The position numbers and the translations under genes are program-made. From contig JAGAQV010000022.1 of assembly GCA_017622555.1 (NCBI GenBank), positions 1 through 64,000 of the forward strand: 64,000 nt of DNA, in the 5' to 3' direction. Below are positions 11,074-59,225 of this stretch, piece after piece. The first letter of the stretch is position 1. Each line of letters begins with the position of its first letter. The notes beneath the pieces were generated by a model, which made no database searches, was not told where the DNA came from, and saw only the letters and a program-made list of their open reading frames with translations. The DNA is from Clostridia bacterium. Lineage in GTDB: Bacteria; Bacillota; Clostridia; Oscillospirales; Acutalibacteraceae.

Positions 11074-12216
11074 ATGGCAAGTTTATCACTTCGTAATGTT
11101 TACAAGAAGTACCCCGGCGGCGTAGTTGCCGTAACAGACTTCAATCTTGAAATTAAGGATAAGGAATTTATCGTATTCGTTGGTCCTTCAGGTTGTGGTA
11201 AGTCCACCACTCTTCGTATGGTTGCAGGTCTTGAAGAAATTTCTGAAGGCGAAATTTACATCGGTGACCGTCTTATCAATGACGTTGCTCCTAAAGATCG
11301 TGATATCGCAATGGTTTTCCAGAACTATGCGCTTTATCCTCATATGACCGTGTTTGATAACATGGCATTCGGTCTTAAGCTTCGTAAAACTCCTAAGGAT
11401 GAAATCAAGCGTCGTGTAGAAGAAGCTGCTCGCATTCTTGACATTGAACACCTTCTTGAGCGTAAGCCCAAGGCTTTGTCTGGTGGTCAGCGTCAGCGTG
11501 TTGCTTTAGGTCGTGCTATCGTTCGTGAACCTAAGGTATTCTTACTTGACGAACCTCTTTCAAACTTGGACGCTAAGCTTCGTGCACAAATGCGTACCGA
11601 AATTTCTAAGCTCCATCAGCGTTTGGGTACAACCTTTATCTACGTTACCCACGACCAGACTGAAGCTATGACCATGGCTTCTCGTATCGTTGTTATGAAG
11701 AGCGGTGTTATCCAACAGGTTGACACACCTCAAAATCTTTACCTCTATCCTTGCAACCTCTTCGTTGCAGGCTTTATCGGTTCACCTCAGATGAACTTTA
11801 TCGAAGCAAAGCTTCTTAAAGAAGGTAACGATTTCTTCGTGGAATACGGTACTGAAGATACCAAGACCCGTGCAGGTGTTAAGTTTAAGGTTAAGCTTCC
11901 TGCAAGCAAGAATAAGGACAACTGTCTCGAAGCTTATGCTGGTAAGGAAGTTATTATGGGTATCCGTCCTGAAAACGTTCACAACGAACCCGAACTTATT
12001 GCTGCTAATAAAGACGGTATTGTTGAAGCAACTGTTGAAGTTACTGAACTTATGGGTGCTGAAACCTACCTTTACATGAACAGTGAAGAACAGGCAATCA
12101 ATGCACGTGTTGCTCCTACTAGCACTGCTAAGCCCGGCGACAAGATTGAAATTGCTCTTGAAACCGACAAGATTCACCTCTTCGATAAGGATACTGAGCT
12201 TACAATTTGCAATTAA
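11074..12216 (+). CDS. ugpC: ABC transporter ATP-binding protein, UgpC/MsmX type
   Basis: A 380-residue ATPase that powers carbohydrate importers of the CUT1 family. Walker [10 protein letters not shown] (about residues 38-46), the Q-loop, signature LSGGQRQR and Walker B VFLLDEP are all intact. The C-terminal 140 residues form the MalK-like OB/regulatory domain, with MGIRPENVH near residue 312. Neither a permease nor a binding-protein gene is next to it, as is usual for shared MsmX-like ATPases that serve many sugar importers. An AGGAG site precedes the start. The codon choice is strongly biased (CGT, CTT, GGT), which suggests high expression. Confidence 0.95.
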
Positions 12217-12234
12217 TTTAAAATTAATTACATT

Positions 12235-12269
12235 CACCCCAAAGGCCAAAAGTCTTTGGGGTGCTTTTT
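12235..12269 (+). terminator. Terminator of the UgpC-type ATPase gene
   Basis: CACCCCAAAG against CTTTGGGGTG followed by CTTTTT. Confidence 0.92.
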
Positions 12270-12273
12270 ATAT

Positions 12274-12512
12274 AAAAAAACCACCTGATATAAGCCAGGT
12301 GGGTTTAGCGGAAGTTATCTATACGAGATCCCGTTTTGCCGTAAAGTGCTTAATGATAACCTGCAGTACAGCAGGTGGGTGCACACCGCGTAACTTCGAG
12401 CTCCCTTCTTCCGAACTCGGCACAGCCGCGGGAGGTCTGCATTCCCATTACACGAGAGTATTGCCCCAAAAATTAAAAGTGTAGGGTTATATAAGCAACG
12501 GTCCGCGAACAA
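12274..12512 (-). ncRNA. ssrS: 6S RNA-like regulatory RNA
   Basis: About 210 bases of the minus strand fold into one long, interrupted rod. The outer ends pair (GCGGA with TCCGC; CCC with GGG). Middle helices pair CGTGTAA with TTACGCG, and a closing hairpin pairs CTCCC with GGGAG around GCCGAGTTCGG. Large internal bulges lie on both sides, as expected for the promoter-mimic bubble of 6S RNA, which binds the sigma-A holoenzyme. A hairpin (CCACCTG/CAGGTGG, 12281-12302) followed by seven T bases on the minus strand terminates it. The identification rests on shape and remembered consensus, not a covariance search. The 5' end is approximate and no clear promoter was found. SRP, RNase P and tmRNA signatures are absent. 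Confidence 0.65.
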
Positions 12513-12553
12513 AACAGGACCTTAAATAATCTTTTTGATTTTAAGTTTGTCTT

Positions 12554-12589
12554 AACACCTCGAAGTACTTATAGTACGTCTTCGGCGTT
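12554..12589. other. Unassigned hairpin between 6S-like RNA and DUF1292 gene
   Basis: AACACC and CGAAG pair with CTTCG and CGTT around a TACTTATAGTA palindrome. There is no T run on the plus strand. It lies between the DUF1292 stop and the 5' end of the 6S-like RNA and could end the DUF1292 transcript. Confidence 0.4.
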
Positions 12590-12617
12590 GTAATTCCAGT
12601 AAAATTTAATAATAGTA

Positions 12618-12923
12618 TTACTTGTTATCAATTTCAAAAAAATCTTCTAAACGGTCAATAAAAGCATCAGCGATGGTTTCATATTCGTCATCGTCTTCAA
12701 TTTCGTAAAAATATTCTTCGCCGTTTTCTTCGCCAACCTTAACAATTACCAATTCTCCGCTTTCGCTGAGCATTTTCTGGGGGTCGTCATAGGTGGGGAG
12801 AAGCGCTAAATACCTTGCTTCATCGGTTTCAATAGCGTCAAGCACCTCAAATGTGTATTCCTTACCATCATCATCTGAAAGGGTTATTAAGTCGGGGTTA
12901 TATTCCTTTTCAATTTCAGCCAT
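12618..12923 (-). CDS. DUF1292 (YrzB-like) protein
   Basis: A 101-residue, highly acidic cytoplasmic protein. The layout ITLSDDDGKEYTFEVLDAIE, YLALLP, ELVIVKVGEENGEEYF and EDDDEYETIADAF is typical of the DUF1292 family (YrzB in B. subtilis), whose members sit near alaS/ruvX loci in many Firmicutes; none of those neighbours is here. AAGGAG precedes the ATG. Function unknown. Confidence 0.88.
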   Translation of the reverse strand: MAEIEKEYNPDLITLSDDDGKEYTFEVLDAIETDEARYLALLPTYDDPQKMLSESGELVIVKVGEENGEEYFYEIEDDDEYETIADAFIDRLEDFFEIDNK

Positions 12924-13084
12924 AATAAATTACTCCTTAAATTATATTTTATGTTTTTTAAATTCAAAAATACAAAGGGGTATAAATTTATCCCTTTACT
13001 GTCTTCTATTTTATCACAAGTGACTAAAAAAGCATAGATTTTTTGAACAATTTGTAAAAATTAACAAAAGTTATTAACTTTTAC
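12924..13084. other. AT-rich intergenic, no gene seen
   Basis: A spacer between two divergent transcription units. It probably holds the DUF1292 promoter (a TATAAT on the minus strand close to the start). No RNA or repeat was recognised. Confidence 0.4.
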
Positions 13085-13113
13085 TTGACTTTTTGTGCAC
13101 TATACATTACAAT
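13085..13113 (+). promoter_or_regulatory. Strong sigma-A promoter of the 13.1-13.8 kb locus
   Basis: TTGACT (13085-13090), a 17-base spacer and TACAAT (13108-13113). A GGAGGAG site follows at 13131. Confidence 0.8.
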
Positions 13114-13145
13114 AAAGACAGAAAAAGAAAGGAGGAGTCAAAAAA

Positions 13146-13184
13146 ATGAAAGATTTAACTCCACCTGAAAGTTATCTTAAATAA
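13146..13184 (+). CDS. Candidate micro-ORF, 12 residues (MKDLTPPESYLK)
   Basis: It has a textbook GGAGGAG site eight bases upstream and is the first ATG after the promoter at 13085, so translation is plausible. It could be a leader peptide. No homolog is known to me. Confidence 0.4.
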   Translation: MKDLTPPESYLK

Positions 13185-13458
13185 ACGAAAGGCGTGATTC
13201 CAATGAAGTAAGAATACTTAAATAACAAAATTTTAAGTTTGTGATCTTTTAAATCTTTAAAAAAGGTTTTCAGAAAACTGGTTTAAAAGTGTGAATTTGG
13301 TTTTGATATTTAAGCGGGCCCGAAAGGGACTTTAAAAAATATAAATTTTAAATGTTAATATGGTCTTGTAAATAATTTAATAAAGGCGGGAAGAGTTTTC
13401 ATTTAGGTTAGTTTTTTCCAGTAGGATTTAACAGATTATAAACCCCCGGTGATGCTTT

Positions 13459-13491
13459 ATGAAAGTTAAAATTTATTTTATCAAAAAATAA
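13459..13491 (+). CDS. Candidate micro-ORF, 10 residues (MKVKIYFIKK)
   Basis: Preceded by CGGTGAT. It is the first member of a duplicated pair; compared with the ORF at 13570 the changes are mostly conservative (V to L, K to R, I to F), which is what selection on a peptide would give. Confidence 0.35.
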   Translation: MKVKIYFIKK

Positions 13492-13569
13492 ACTGATAAG
13501 GTGAGACCAATGTACAGTTAAATGTTAATCTGAAAAGATAGCATATATTAAAAAAGTTCGGTGATTTTA

Positions 13570-13599
13570 ATGAAATTAAGATTTTATTCCATTAAATAA
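13570..13599 (+). CDS. Candidate micro-ORF, 9 residues (MKLRFYSIK)
   Basis: Second member of the duplicated pair, preceded by CGGTGAT and ending in the same TAAAC context as the first copy. Confidence 0.35.
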   Translation: MKLRFYSIK

Positions 13600-13617
13600 A
13601 CTGTAAGGGTGAGTCCA

Positions 13618-13656
13618 ATGTACAATTTAACTTTAAAAAAGGTTTTTGTTCCGTAA
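13618..13656 (+). CDS. Candidate micro-ORF, 12 residues (MYNLTLKKVFVP)
   Basis: Starts at the ATG of the conserved AAGGGTGAGTCCAATG block. In the preceding copy the matching ATG at 13510 opens only a three-residue frame (MYS), so the coding status is doubtful and the block may be a structural RNA motif instead. Confidence 0.25.
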   Translation: MYNLTLKKVFVP

Positions 13657-13765
13657 AATAATTTTTAACTTGGGGAACGCCCCATGATATGCAGGTGCCG
13701 CATAGGGCATTAAAAACGGAAAAACGAAAGAAGAATTTTAAAAAATGAATATTGAAATAATTTAA

Positions 13766-13805
13766 CCGACTGTGTAAAATATTAGCTTACGCAGTCGGTT
13801 TTTTA
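13766..13805 (+). terminator. Terminator of the 13.1-13.8 kb locus
   Basis: CCGACTG plus GTAA against TTAC plus CAGTCGG, followed by seven T bases. Confidence 0.92.
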
Positions 13806-13810
13806 TTTAT

Positions 13811-13843
13811 AAAAAAGCATCCGCCAATTTGGCGGATGCTTTA
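13811..13843 (-). terminator. Terminator of the pth-mfd-foldase operon
   Basis: On the minus strand AAAGCATCCGCC against GGCGGATGCTTT followed by TTT. It lies just past the stop at 13851. Confidence 0.9.
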
Positions 13844-13850
13844 ACATTTA

Positions 13851-14954
13851 TTATTGATAAGAGGGTTCTTTAATTTTCTTAACCTTAAAGCGATCAACTG
13901 CGTAGCTGCTAATATCAGTCTTTGCGGTTTTGAAAACCTCGGCCATATCCTTGTTGAATTCGTCGTCCTTTAAAAGATGGCGAACAGCACTATCCATATT
14001 TTCACGGTAATAGGGGTCAGCCTTAATATCCTTTTTAATAACCAGAATGTAGCCGGCTTTTTCTTTCTTTTCAATAATCTTAACTTCGTTGGTTGCCATT
14101 TTGTTAATGTCATCGAAGTAGTCGTGGTCATAGCCTGTATCTTTAGCGCCAAGGATTTGAGCGTATTCATCAATTGGCTTAAGCTCTTCTTCCTCTTCCT
14201 CGCCTTCCTTGTCGGTTTCTTCCTTTTCCTCTTCTTTTTCCTCTTCAGGCTTTATATCGTTATAGTCGTTATAAACCTCTTCAAAGGTCTTTTTGCCTGC
14301 GTTAAGGTCTGCAAGGTAACCGTCAAGCTTGGTTTTAATTTCGGCTTTTTCAGTGTCCTTTTCGCTGCTGAAGGTAACGTCAATTAAATCAGCAATTAAA
14401 AAGTCCTTATAAAGCTTTGCTTCAACGTCAGCTGCAGCAATTTCCTTTTCGCCGCCCTCACCGTAAATATGCTGGAAATATAAGTCAGCATAGAAGGTGT
14501 CAACGTTGAATTGTAAGTAGGTGTTCCAACTTACGCCGTTAGGTTCAAAAAGCTGACCATAGCCGTAATAATACCAAGTGTAGTATGCCATATTTTGTGC
14601 TTCGCTCATTTGGTCGTCGCTAAGCTCAAGCTTAGCATCCTTGCAAAGCTTTTGGTAGGTGCCAATTTCTTCAAGAATGTCAATTGCACGGTCCTTTACC
14701 CAAGCGTCAAACTTCTTATCATCGATTTTTTGCTTGAAGTAATCGGTTTCAGCGGTGAATTTGTCACCCATAGCGGTTTGAACTTCGCTTTGACCTTCAG
14801 TGTAAGCGTTAATAAGTGCACACATATAGTAAGCTGAGGTATACTCAAAGCCGTTAACTGTAACAGCAATTTCATTTTTCTTGTGGCAGCCTGTTACCGA
14901 TAAAGCCAAAATTAAAACGATAACAGCAGCAACGATTTTTTTCATTAACTTCAT
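13851..14954 (-). CDS. Lipoprotein, SurA/PrsA-like foldase candidate
   Basis: A 367-residue secreted lipoprotein. The signal peptide (MKLMKKIV, hydrophobic core) ends in a lipobox SVTGC with the modified Cys at residue 23. After it comes a VTVNGFEYTSAYY block like the N-terminal domain of SurA/PrsA-type chaperones, then helical sequence, a very acidic low-complexity segment (about residues 235-262, nearly all Glu, Lys, Asp) and a C-terminal domain. No clear PPIase motif is seen. Position supports the call: in Clostridia a foldase-type gene commonly follows mfd. The start at 14954 is chosen because GGAGGATT lies eight bases upstream; the longer frame has no site. Probably an extracytoplasmic protein-folding helper. 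Confidence 0.7.
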   Translation of the reverse strand: MKLMKKIVAAVIVLILALSVTGCHKKNEIAVTVNGFEYTSAYYMCALINAYTEGQSEVQTAMGDKFTAETDYFKQKIDDKKFDAWVKDRAIDILEEIGTYQKLCKDAKLELSDDQMSEAQNMAYYTWYYYGYGQLFEPNGVSWNTYLQFNVDTFYADLYFQHIYGEGGEKEIAAADVEAKLYKDFLIADLIDVTFSSEKDTEKAEIKTKLDGYLADLNAGKKTFEEVYNDYNDIKPEEEKEEEKEETDKEGEEEEEELKPIDEYAQILGAKDTGYDHDYFDDINKMATNEVKIIEKKEKAGYILVIKKDIKADPYYRENMDSAVRHLLKDDEFNKDMAEVFKTAKTDISSYAVDRFKVKKIKEPSYQ

Positions 14955-15032
14955 TTTTAATCCTCCGAAGATTTTATACAATATAAATATTATATATTAA
15001 CTTAACCGAAAAGTCCACAAAAATTTTGTTAA

Positions 15033-19129: not shown

Positions 19130-19138
19130 AATTTTAAG

Positions 19139-19369
19139 AAAAGCGTTGATAAGGACATTAGCTTAAACGTGACGTTTTTAGAGAATGCGGGTCACCGGCT
19201 GTAAGCCCGCTAAACCGACTTTAAGTGAAACCGCCTTTGAGCTGTTCGGGGGTCAAAAACCCGTACCGTTTAGCCTGCGTTAAGGGTGCTGAGTGCCGAT
19301 TTTTTCGGAATTTGGGTGGAACCGCGGAGAAATTATGCTTCGTCCCTTTTGTTAGGGACGAAGTTTTTG
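19139..19369 (+). promoter_or_regulatory. T-box riboswitch, threonine-specific
   Basis: Controls thrS by sensing uncharged tRNA-Thr. The stem I region begins AGAGAATGCGGG and includes a candidate specifier ACC (19230-19232, within GTGAAACCGCC), a threonine codon. The conserved T-box TGGGTGGAACCGCG is at 19313-19326. A terminator stem, CTTCGTCCC against GGGACGAAG (19338-19363) followed by T bases, completes the antiterminator/terminator switch. The specifier assignment is by pattern; the T-box itself is certain. Confidence 0.95.
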
Positions 19370-59016: not shown

Positions 59017-59056
59017 CCAAAAAACACAACAAAACATAGAGATATTGTTATAATTT

Positions 59057-59215
59057 TGATAGCACTCCGCAAATGCGACAGTAAAGCGGATATTATTCCG
59101 AATTACCAAGAAGCTGCCTGCCGACAACAACTTTCGGCGGCGACCCCTTTCACAGTCACATTTTCCTGCCGGAATTTGCATTAACTGCTACTTTTGACCT
59201 ACCGCGCCTCTATCT
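59057..59215 (-). promoter_or_regulatory. Lysine riboswitch (L box)
   Basis: On the minus strand the aptamer runs from GATAGAGGCGCGG to GGAGTGCTATC, whose ends pair as P1. The conserved GTGAAAGGGG-TCGCCGCCGAAAG block (near 59122-59145) and the GGCAGGC region match the L-box consensus. It senses lysine and ends transcription of dapA-lysA when lysine is plentiful. Confidence 0.93.
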
Positions 59216-59225
59216 TATTGTCAAC

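Follow-up and report, generated by a model that had tools for sequence, protein, structure and literature searches.

What is encoded by a stretch of DNA that has its own promoter and terminator and no ordinary gene between them? We analysed such a stretch in a 64,000-nt segment from a Clostridia bacterium (GCA_017622555.1, contig JAGAQV010000022.1, positions 1–64,000, forward strand; hereafter, the window). An earlier note, made from the letters of the window, had proposed a large structured RNA, a string of micro-peptides or a dual-function RNA. The first proposal turned out to be weak and the second was borne out in part, while the third comes closest to the reading that we favour.

The unit and its parts

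The outline given in the earlier note holds: positions 13085–13806 form a promoter-to-terminator unit without an ordinary gene, whose features, described below, are all on the + strand. A sigma-A-type promoter, TTGACT-17-TACAAT, lies at 13085–13113 and matches 10 of the 12 consensus bases, with relatives mostly having TTGACA and TATAAT. Promoter-like sites are not rare in this region (18 in 12000–15000 versus 8.5±3.3 in shuffles), and the evidence for the promoter is therefore its conservation, not its match to the consensus. The predicted transcript (13119–13806, ~0.69 kb, its start placed from the −10 box) ends at an intrinsic terminator (13764–13806): arms of 14 nt (13764–13777 and 13787–13800), 93% complementary, are followed by TTTTTT, and sequence, arm complementarity and covarying pairs all point to it. 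It is absent from the output of our pattern scanner, which has a loop limit of 8. Immediately past it lies a second strong hairpin (13814–13842), probably the terminator of the opposite-strand gene, as judged from its T-run on that strand. The lack of a long ORF was likewise confirmed; the sole + strand ORF of at least 20 aa begins within the promoter, and no + strand ORF of that length with a ribosome binding site is found in 13085–13806.

The unit does contain a series of very short ORFs. The first, a 12-residue ORF already noticed behind GGAGGAG (ORF1, MKDLTPPESYLK, 13146–13184), has a Shine–Dalgarno (SD) sequence, GGAGGAGT, at 13131–13138 that could pair with ACTCCACC (13158–13165) inside the ORF. 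A 10-codon ORF (MKVKIYFIKK, 13459–13491) and a 9-codon ORF (MKLRFYSIK, 13570–13599), each behind GGTGA, had been overlooked, as had a motif, TGANTCCRA, which occurs exactly at 13195 and 13610 and as the variant TGAGACCAA at 13502. Each copy comes with an ORF of its own: copy 1 (TGATTCCAA) with the two-codon ORF ATG AAG TAA (13195–13211), copy 2 (the variant) with the three-codon ORF ATG TAC AGT TAA (13502–13521), and copy 3 (TGAGTCCAA) with the 12-codon ORF MYNLTLKKVFVP (13610–13656). A last possible micro-ORF, MNIEII (13745–13765), is present in the closest aligned relatives. Across the window, TGANTCCRAWG has 3 hits versus 0.28 expected, one of them outside the unit; the motif is weak evidence within the window alone, and the case rests on relatives.

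The unit folds slightly better than its shuffles (z = −2.0, 20 shuffles), and covariation is scant outside the terminator and a few short hairpins. One of the hairpins is the GNRA-type CCC-GAAA-GGG that had been reported, present at 13319–13328 (13316–13331 with its outer pairs), in which one pair is altered on both sides in a relative (L011; loci are cited by L numbers). Compensatory changes are also seen, among six close relatives, in two short 3′ hairpins (GGGG-AACG-CCCC and a second, 13671–13711). When the first 100 alignment columns are folded to one consensus, 4 pairs result, and none of these is changed on both sides. The Rfam search that had been proposed gave no match at the gathering score over the unit (4227 models) or over the scanned elements of relatives, the sub-threshold matches clustering on terminators and the 3′ end, and a known RNA family was rejected on this ground. 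A large structured RNA of the OLE, ROOL, GOLLD or raiA kind, or of another known family, would fit a long intergenic unit without a long ORF and with a few compensated hairpins. However, the weak global structure, the little covariation, the lack of an Rfam match and a length that varies from ~250 nt to ~1 kb between genera leave it very improbable.

A decayed mobile fragment, which the earlier note had named as a way to refute its proposals, or chance intergenic sequence might be suspected from the AT-rich composition and the lack of a long ORF. The unit is, however, conserved over genera, and blastn gave no match among 50,697 phage or 72,556 plasmid records; the chance that this explanation is right is close to negligible. 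The exact motif does occur in viral contigs, where a second copy lay nearby in 1 of 80 examined (of 120, among the matches listed), which looks like chance. With no phage or plasmid match and a chance-like occurrence in viral contigs, a mobile origin was rejected. Presumed resemblances of the motif to T-loop, hammerhead, kink-turn and SRP-like elements were dropped. Elsewhere in the window are a T-box leader (19137–19350, + strand) before an ORF read as threonyl-tRNA synthetase, and a lysine riboswitch (59052–59220, − strand).

A strict motif at start-like sites

Elements were collected from 59 loci adjoining the DUF1292-type gene next to the unit (see below), from DNA hits and from fetched stretches, by requiring a promoter and at least two loose motif matches, which gave 94 elements, 63 of them distinct (L055 and L094, false hits of the first rule, were removed). 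In 81 elements, namely 60 of the 63 genus elements (L078, L089 and L093 being excluded) and 21 picked from other-genus loci, TGANTCCRA occurs 196 times, compared with 1.6 in dinucleotide shuffles; this count is partly built in, as the elements were chosen partly by a looser form of the motif (TG[AG], a gap of 1–3, CC[AG]A). In these elements N is G in 151 copies, T in 41 and A in 4, and R is A in 130, G in 66 and C in 5. Between TGA and CC, 230 copies have a gap of 2; gaps of 0, 1, 3, 4 and 5 are found in 4, 1, 12, 2 and 2 copies, respectively (shuffles 3.5–6.1 each).

An alignment made by blastn only, without the motif rule, agrees with the motif count. For copy 1, 61 of 62 loci are clean, and in these T, G, T, C, C, A, T and G never vary, N being T in 32 and G in 29; for copy 3, 40 of 48 are clean, with T, G, C, C, A, T and G constant and N split evenly between G (20) and T (20). 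A(−6) is A in 58 of the 61 and 37 of the 40, in an alignment where the same contig may occur twice and blastn favours similar loci. Copies are often ~45–57 nt apart, or ~100 nt with a 9-codon ORF between them. In predicted folds the motif is not unusually open (unpaired 0.47, compared with 0.52 for the flanks and 0.43 for the same motif in shuffled flanks).

The copies are laid out like start sites. SD-like bases lie upstream of them, and 144 of 192 genus copies have an ATG at the same place. The other 48 keep the motif and mostly have AAA (21) or AAG (20) there; AAAG stands at −15 to −12 in 85–91% of non-ATG copies. After exactly 2 or 3 codons, 108 of 142 distinct ATG copies reach a stop, compared with 21 and 10 for the two remaining frames (in frame +1 a TGA stop follows immediately 37 times). 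There are 111 ORFs of at most 4 codons, specifying 26 different peptides, among them MK-stop (30) and MYS-stop (19). Such numbers, together with a precedent in cis at txe, would suit a minigene effect, in which ATG-X-stop units cause ribosomes to drop off or pause and so change the supply of tRNA or ribosomes, or the stability of the RNA. The same in-frame stop is, however, as common in copies without ATG (36 of 48); the stop is therefore no proof of translation and may belong to the RNA element. We consider a minigene effect quite unlikely.

The predicted anti-SD energy is −9.5 kcal/mol for non-ATG copies and −9.8 kcal/mol for ATG copies, compared with −7.5 for 49 ORFs of the window and −5.1 for shuffled sequences, as calculated with an assumed 15-base tail, GATCACCTCCTTT being confirmed in one genus genome. 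As the non-ATG copies retain both the motif and the anti-SD energy, the sequences argue that recognition, rather than translation, is what these copies conserve.

What could recognize them? The obvious alternative partner is the 3′ tail of 16S rRNA, which the copies might bind so that several 30S subunits are parked on one RNA. In this pairing GGUGA-N-UCC would face GGAUCACC, which directly precedes the anti-SD; one base would be bulged, and R would stand opposite U. The sole 16S 3′ end found in the genus (genome G021; 1 of 70 genomes) reads GGTGCGGCTGGATCACCTCC, the anti-SD energy of the copies is better than that of window genes, and both A and G at R would pair with U. However, the bulge-free form is not enriched (a TGA–CC gap of 1 is found once, versus 5.3 in shuffles), and C to T changes, which a facing G would tolerate, are almost absent (C−3 1/197 and C−2 0/196; 0/61 and 0/40 in the alignment). 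Moreover, given the geometry of the ribosome, pairing up to the base before ATG leaves no room for normal initiation. The obligatory bulge is left unexplained, and, because the bulge-free form is not enriched, we keep 16S pairing as an unlikely rival and not as a full explanation. We examined 23S-containing, partial 16S and 6S stretches and found no complement TYGGANTCA in them, and 16S, 23S and 6S were rejected as perfect-complement partners; energies of about −20 kcal/mol to 40-base windows of 16S, 23S and 6S were taken as background, without a shuffle control.

Relatives, neighbours and micro-ORFs

Matches to the unit at E≤0.01 were found by blastn in 53 of 70 same-genus genomes (its own included), some of them short and weak. 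Three of these genomes, apart from its own, match over ~720 bases at 87–89% identity, and many same-genus matches are limited to the first 130 bases and inner stretches. Its own genome has no second copy (next best hit E 0.04). Beyond the genus we read 85 loci, and 34 of them contain a motif array, defined here as at least 2 motif copies within 400 nt, compared with 0.1 on average in shuffled loci; the arrays span 17 genera of the family as well as 3 further families of the order. Hits of a 98-position, sequence-only model were obtained in 83 of 398 family genomes at E≤0.01 and in 13 of 295 genomes of the order at E≤5e-4, with its own and same-genus genomes included in both counts and weak matches that may be chance. 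The unit, which lies between two ordinary genes, is found in many species of gut and rumen Clostridia.

Two neighbours of the unit are syntenic, a divergent gene called DUF1292-type in the earlier note (12618–12923, − strand) and a 6S RNA gene (12324–12523, − strand; 63.0 bits in Rfam, gathering score 46.4). The order 6S RNA–DUF1292–array is seen in the window, in the genus loci scanned (L048, L052, L062 and L085) and in two other genera (L168; L169, L170 and L173), and in a third genus (L187) 6S RNA and DUF1292 are followed by a single motif copy. As this order recurs across genera, the locus is probably ancestral; we found no relation between the 6S RNA and the array RNA that share it. Other neighbours vary, and from their translations we take them to be lepA, argG, rpmH, a lipoprotein, an EamA-type transporter, asparaginase, NAD synthase and dinB. 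While these change, the unit keeps its own promoter and terminator. Because the adjoining genes differ between relatives, the unit would be a gene in its own right, and because the downstream genes vary, its RNA probably acts in trans.

Two families of micro-ORFs recur in these elements. ORF1 belongs to the ExPP type, in which PP follows an acidic or similar residue. Such ORFs are present in 47 of the 63 genus elements and extend to several other genera and families, examples being MILREDNPPDVLS, MKTEFEPPAHLEKF..., MISDTPPAVAKRID and MKLEPPEYSKK; in L237, a locus from a different family of the order, ExPP micro-ORF and motif together form a module that stands three times in tandem within one unit (1500–1900). 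The second family, in which 31 of 44 ORFs found by rule have 9 codons, often reads MIVRKxxIK or MKVRRxFIK, and its stop directly precedes a motif copy in 36 elements. It occurs mainly within the genus and was also seen in genus g94 (L149).

When all pairs are compared, the in-frame share of single changes that are synonymous is 0.42 versus 0.21 expected for the 9-codon ORF (other frames 0.27 and 0.16) and 0.37 versus 0.23 expected for ORF1 (0.07 and 0.15). On disjoint pairs the signal of the 9-codon ORF is modest (12 of 30 synonymous versus 0.24 expected), and that of ORF1 without its PP codons is gone (7 of 34, expected 0.21); the excess of the ExPP ORF, as far as these comparisons go, rests on codons at and next to PP. 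Those codons of ORF1 can be held by pairing with the SD. Covariation of this SD–PP hairpin is weak (the matched pair is the better one in 24 of 47 cases; for the 39 distinct ones a permutation test gives 0.03), the SD pairing being only weakly better than with mismatched partners, and the ExPP repeats of L237 use different codons before PP, which SD pairing would not explain.

It is possible that the RNA is an mRNA for micropeptides, making the ExPP peptide (mostly 11–12 aa) and 9-aa cationic peptides of the MIVRKxxIK type, with the other short ORFs tuning translation. The spread of the ExPP ORF within the genus and beyond, and the in-frame synonymous excess of both ORFs over all pairs, speak for this. 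However, the excess is modest or vanishes on disjoint pairs, the PP codons are explicable by SD pairing, and the motif is retained where the ORFs are not: L047 has neither, and L048, L067, L077, L079, L082 and L083 have no ExPP ORF. We regard such an mRNA as improbable. The string of micro-peptides proposed earlier finds partial support in the recurrence of the two families and in the frame-specific excess of the 9-codon ORF, but the ExPP excess is confined to the codons at and beside PP, and one motif copy in four is without ATG.

Single copies and a candidate decoy

In the 70 genus genomes, AAAGNNNTGANTCCRATG has 38 sites in 34 genomes, 34 of them within the array. The other 4 are the starts of PadR genes in G012, G024 and G033 (PadR identity is by Pfam for one of the three) and a leader beside the PadR start of G033, which precedes a secreted C39-type peptidase. 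In the family, AAAGGNNTGANTCCRATG has 50 sites in 45 of 398 genomes, versus 2 sites of the reversed control pattern. We read all 50; some are arrays, some ordinary gene starts and some the starts of long RNAs.

Single copies in the family begin mini-ORFs 52–192 nt before another gene. By a simple heuristic, this next gene is secretory or membrane-anchored in 10 of 10 cases from 9 genera, compared with 57 of 275 controls, kinship being uncorrected. The ten cases (L108, L113, L175, L176, L177, L190, L198, L200, L211 and L218) come from AAAGGNNTGANTCCRATG sites pooled with partial hits of the 98-position model. Altogether 42 single sites were sorted: 11 directly start a gene (a PadR gene in three cases; several overlap coding sequence), 10 have the next ORF within 200 nt and alone enter the 10 of 10, 3 have an ORF further away (the second site of L190, L193 and L214) and 18 have none. 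Pfam, run on eight of the ten, assigned C39-type peptidase (L108; L218 below the cut-off), matrixin (L190, L211), ricin-type lectin (L175, L190), CARDB (L176), Amidase_6 (L177) and nothing (L200). Among 18 stretches read later, 2 (L365 and L374) satisfy this rule, each with a secretory next gene; L381 would have made a third secretory case but was not counted, as it has another loose copy within 260 nt, and L373 has a non-secretory ORF 278 nt away.

In L108 (690–1700), divergent genes for PadR and a secreted C39-type peptidase both have the motif at their first start site. In L381, near 1169, the motif and a four-codon mini-ORF lie 65 nt before a secretory-type gene; L381 comes from a different family of the order, so that the leader form is not confined to the family.

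In the genome of the window, TGANTCCRAWG has 6 sites, the same number as the reversed control pattern, and 0 of the 4 sites outside the unit precede an evident start at ribosome-binding-site spacing, so that no regulon sharing the exact motif is apparent in this genome. GGTGANTCCRA, searched on both strands, occurs there once beyond the unit, with no evident sRNA, and shorter seeds are possible.

The word is strict, persists without ATG, changes its context and is used at other starts, from which we infer a site for a trans-acting factor. Our preferred reading, held tentatively and at somewhat less than an even chance, is that the array RNA is a multi-site decoy (sponge) for a putative factor that binds translation sites by recognizing UGANUCCRA. 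Strong transcription from the near-consensus promoter would yield the ~0.69-kb RNA, whose motif copies at start-like sites would bind the factor, either a protein or an RNA targeting start sites, and titrate it away from other sites. Early stops and loss of ATG would keep the decoy sites from being translated far, and mRNAs with degenerate or single-copy leaders, which in some genera may include those of PadR and secretory-protein genes, would be released. Translation of the ExPP micro-ORF is likely, and this ORF may determine if the first sites are open.

Several observations count against a decoy. A plain decoy would not require conserved micro-ORFs, which ask for an extra role; its own genome offers no second convincing site; no TYGGANTCA complement was found in the rRNA and 6S stretches examined; the motif is not unusually open in predicted folds; and stops are as frequent without ATG. 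A wider proposal, which we think doubtful, is an RNA class across an order of gut Clostridia in which tandem near-empty start sites (SD, UGANUCCRA, AUG and a stop after two or three codons) trap an initiation regulator or initiating ribosomes, in some genera with a regulon of secreted proteins that has one module per leader.

Known systems offer partial likenesses. The decoys CsrB and RsmZ carry, in many copies, a short motif that is bound by a protein and that in target mRNAs overlaps start sites, the Csr sites being ANGGA in hairpin loops. The array RNA also repeats one short motif at start-like sites, but its word is UGANUCCRA, GGA is present in only some copies, and ANGGA in loops is not its pattern. 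In the bar minigene of phage lambda, an SD followed by ATG-X-stop makes ribosomes drop off or pause. The minigene layout (SD, ATG, 1–2 codons, stop) is that of the 108 early-stopping ATG copies; lambda bar and axe-txe, however, have one or few units, whereas the array RNA strings several together, a quarter of them without ATG. In axe-txe, a two-codon mini-ORF (mg2) is described as regulating txe in cis (PMC8708949). The dual-function sRNA VcdRP is likewise described with a short coding part, VcdP, of 29 aa (PMC8672173), compared with several ORFs of 2–14 codons in the array RNA.

RosA of B. subtilis and RsaI of S. aureus, from Firmicutes, are sponge RNAs with a mimicry of start sites; they are described as stand-alone RNAs whose G-rich, start-site-like stretches, three in RosA and two in RsaI, titrate C-rich sRNAs (PMC8216469). 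The array RNA instead repeats a 9-base word. The passages of that source that were examined mention neither an invariant 9-base word nor micro-ORF arrays for RosA or RsaI (PMC8216469), and the array RNA has no Rfam match to either. In its predicted function, the array RNA would work most like these sponge RNAs, with minigene-like units.

As a sequence family and an architecture, the array RNA stands alone in the searches made. The element resides in little-studied gut and rumen Clostridia and is unmatched in Rfam, and we found no description of it in the open-licence literature at title and abstract level, minigenes and polyproline leaders included. A repeated and almost unchanging start-site signal would imply a trans-acting factor of translation new to these Clostridia. 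If so, the motif and mini-ORF before secreted peptidases and lectins would tie this factor to products released into the gut, and a confirmed decoy would be a further variation on sponge RNAs.

Other long RNA-like units also carry the motif. In two genera (L112, 700–1250, and L181, 1380–1940), a second such unit has the motif at its start and an A-rich interior, and ends in a similar ATAACCCTTGAC... terminator. Units of ~0.8–1.2 kb in L191 (1380–2600) and L196 (1050–1950) have the motif near both ends. Since the gene after the L196 unit is of the EamA type, which is also what follows the short arrays of genus g41, the interior seems to have been expanded or lost.
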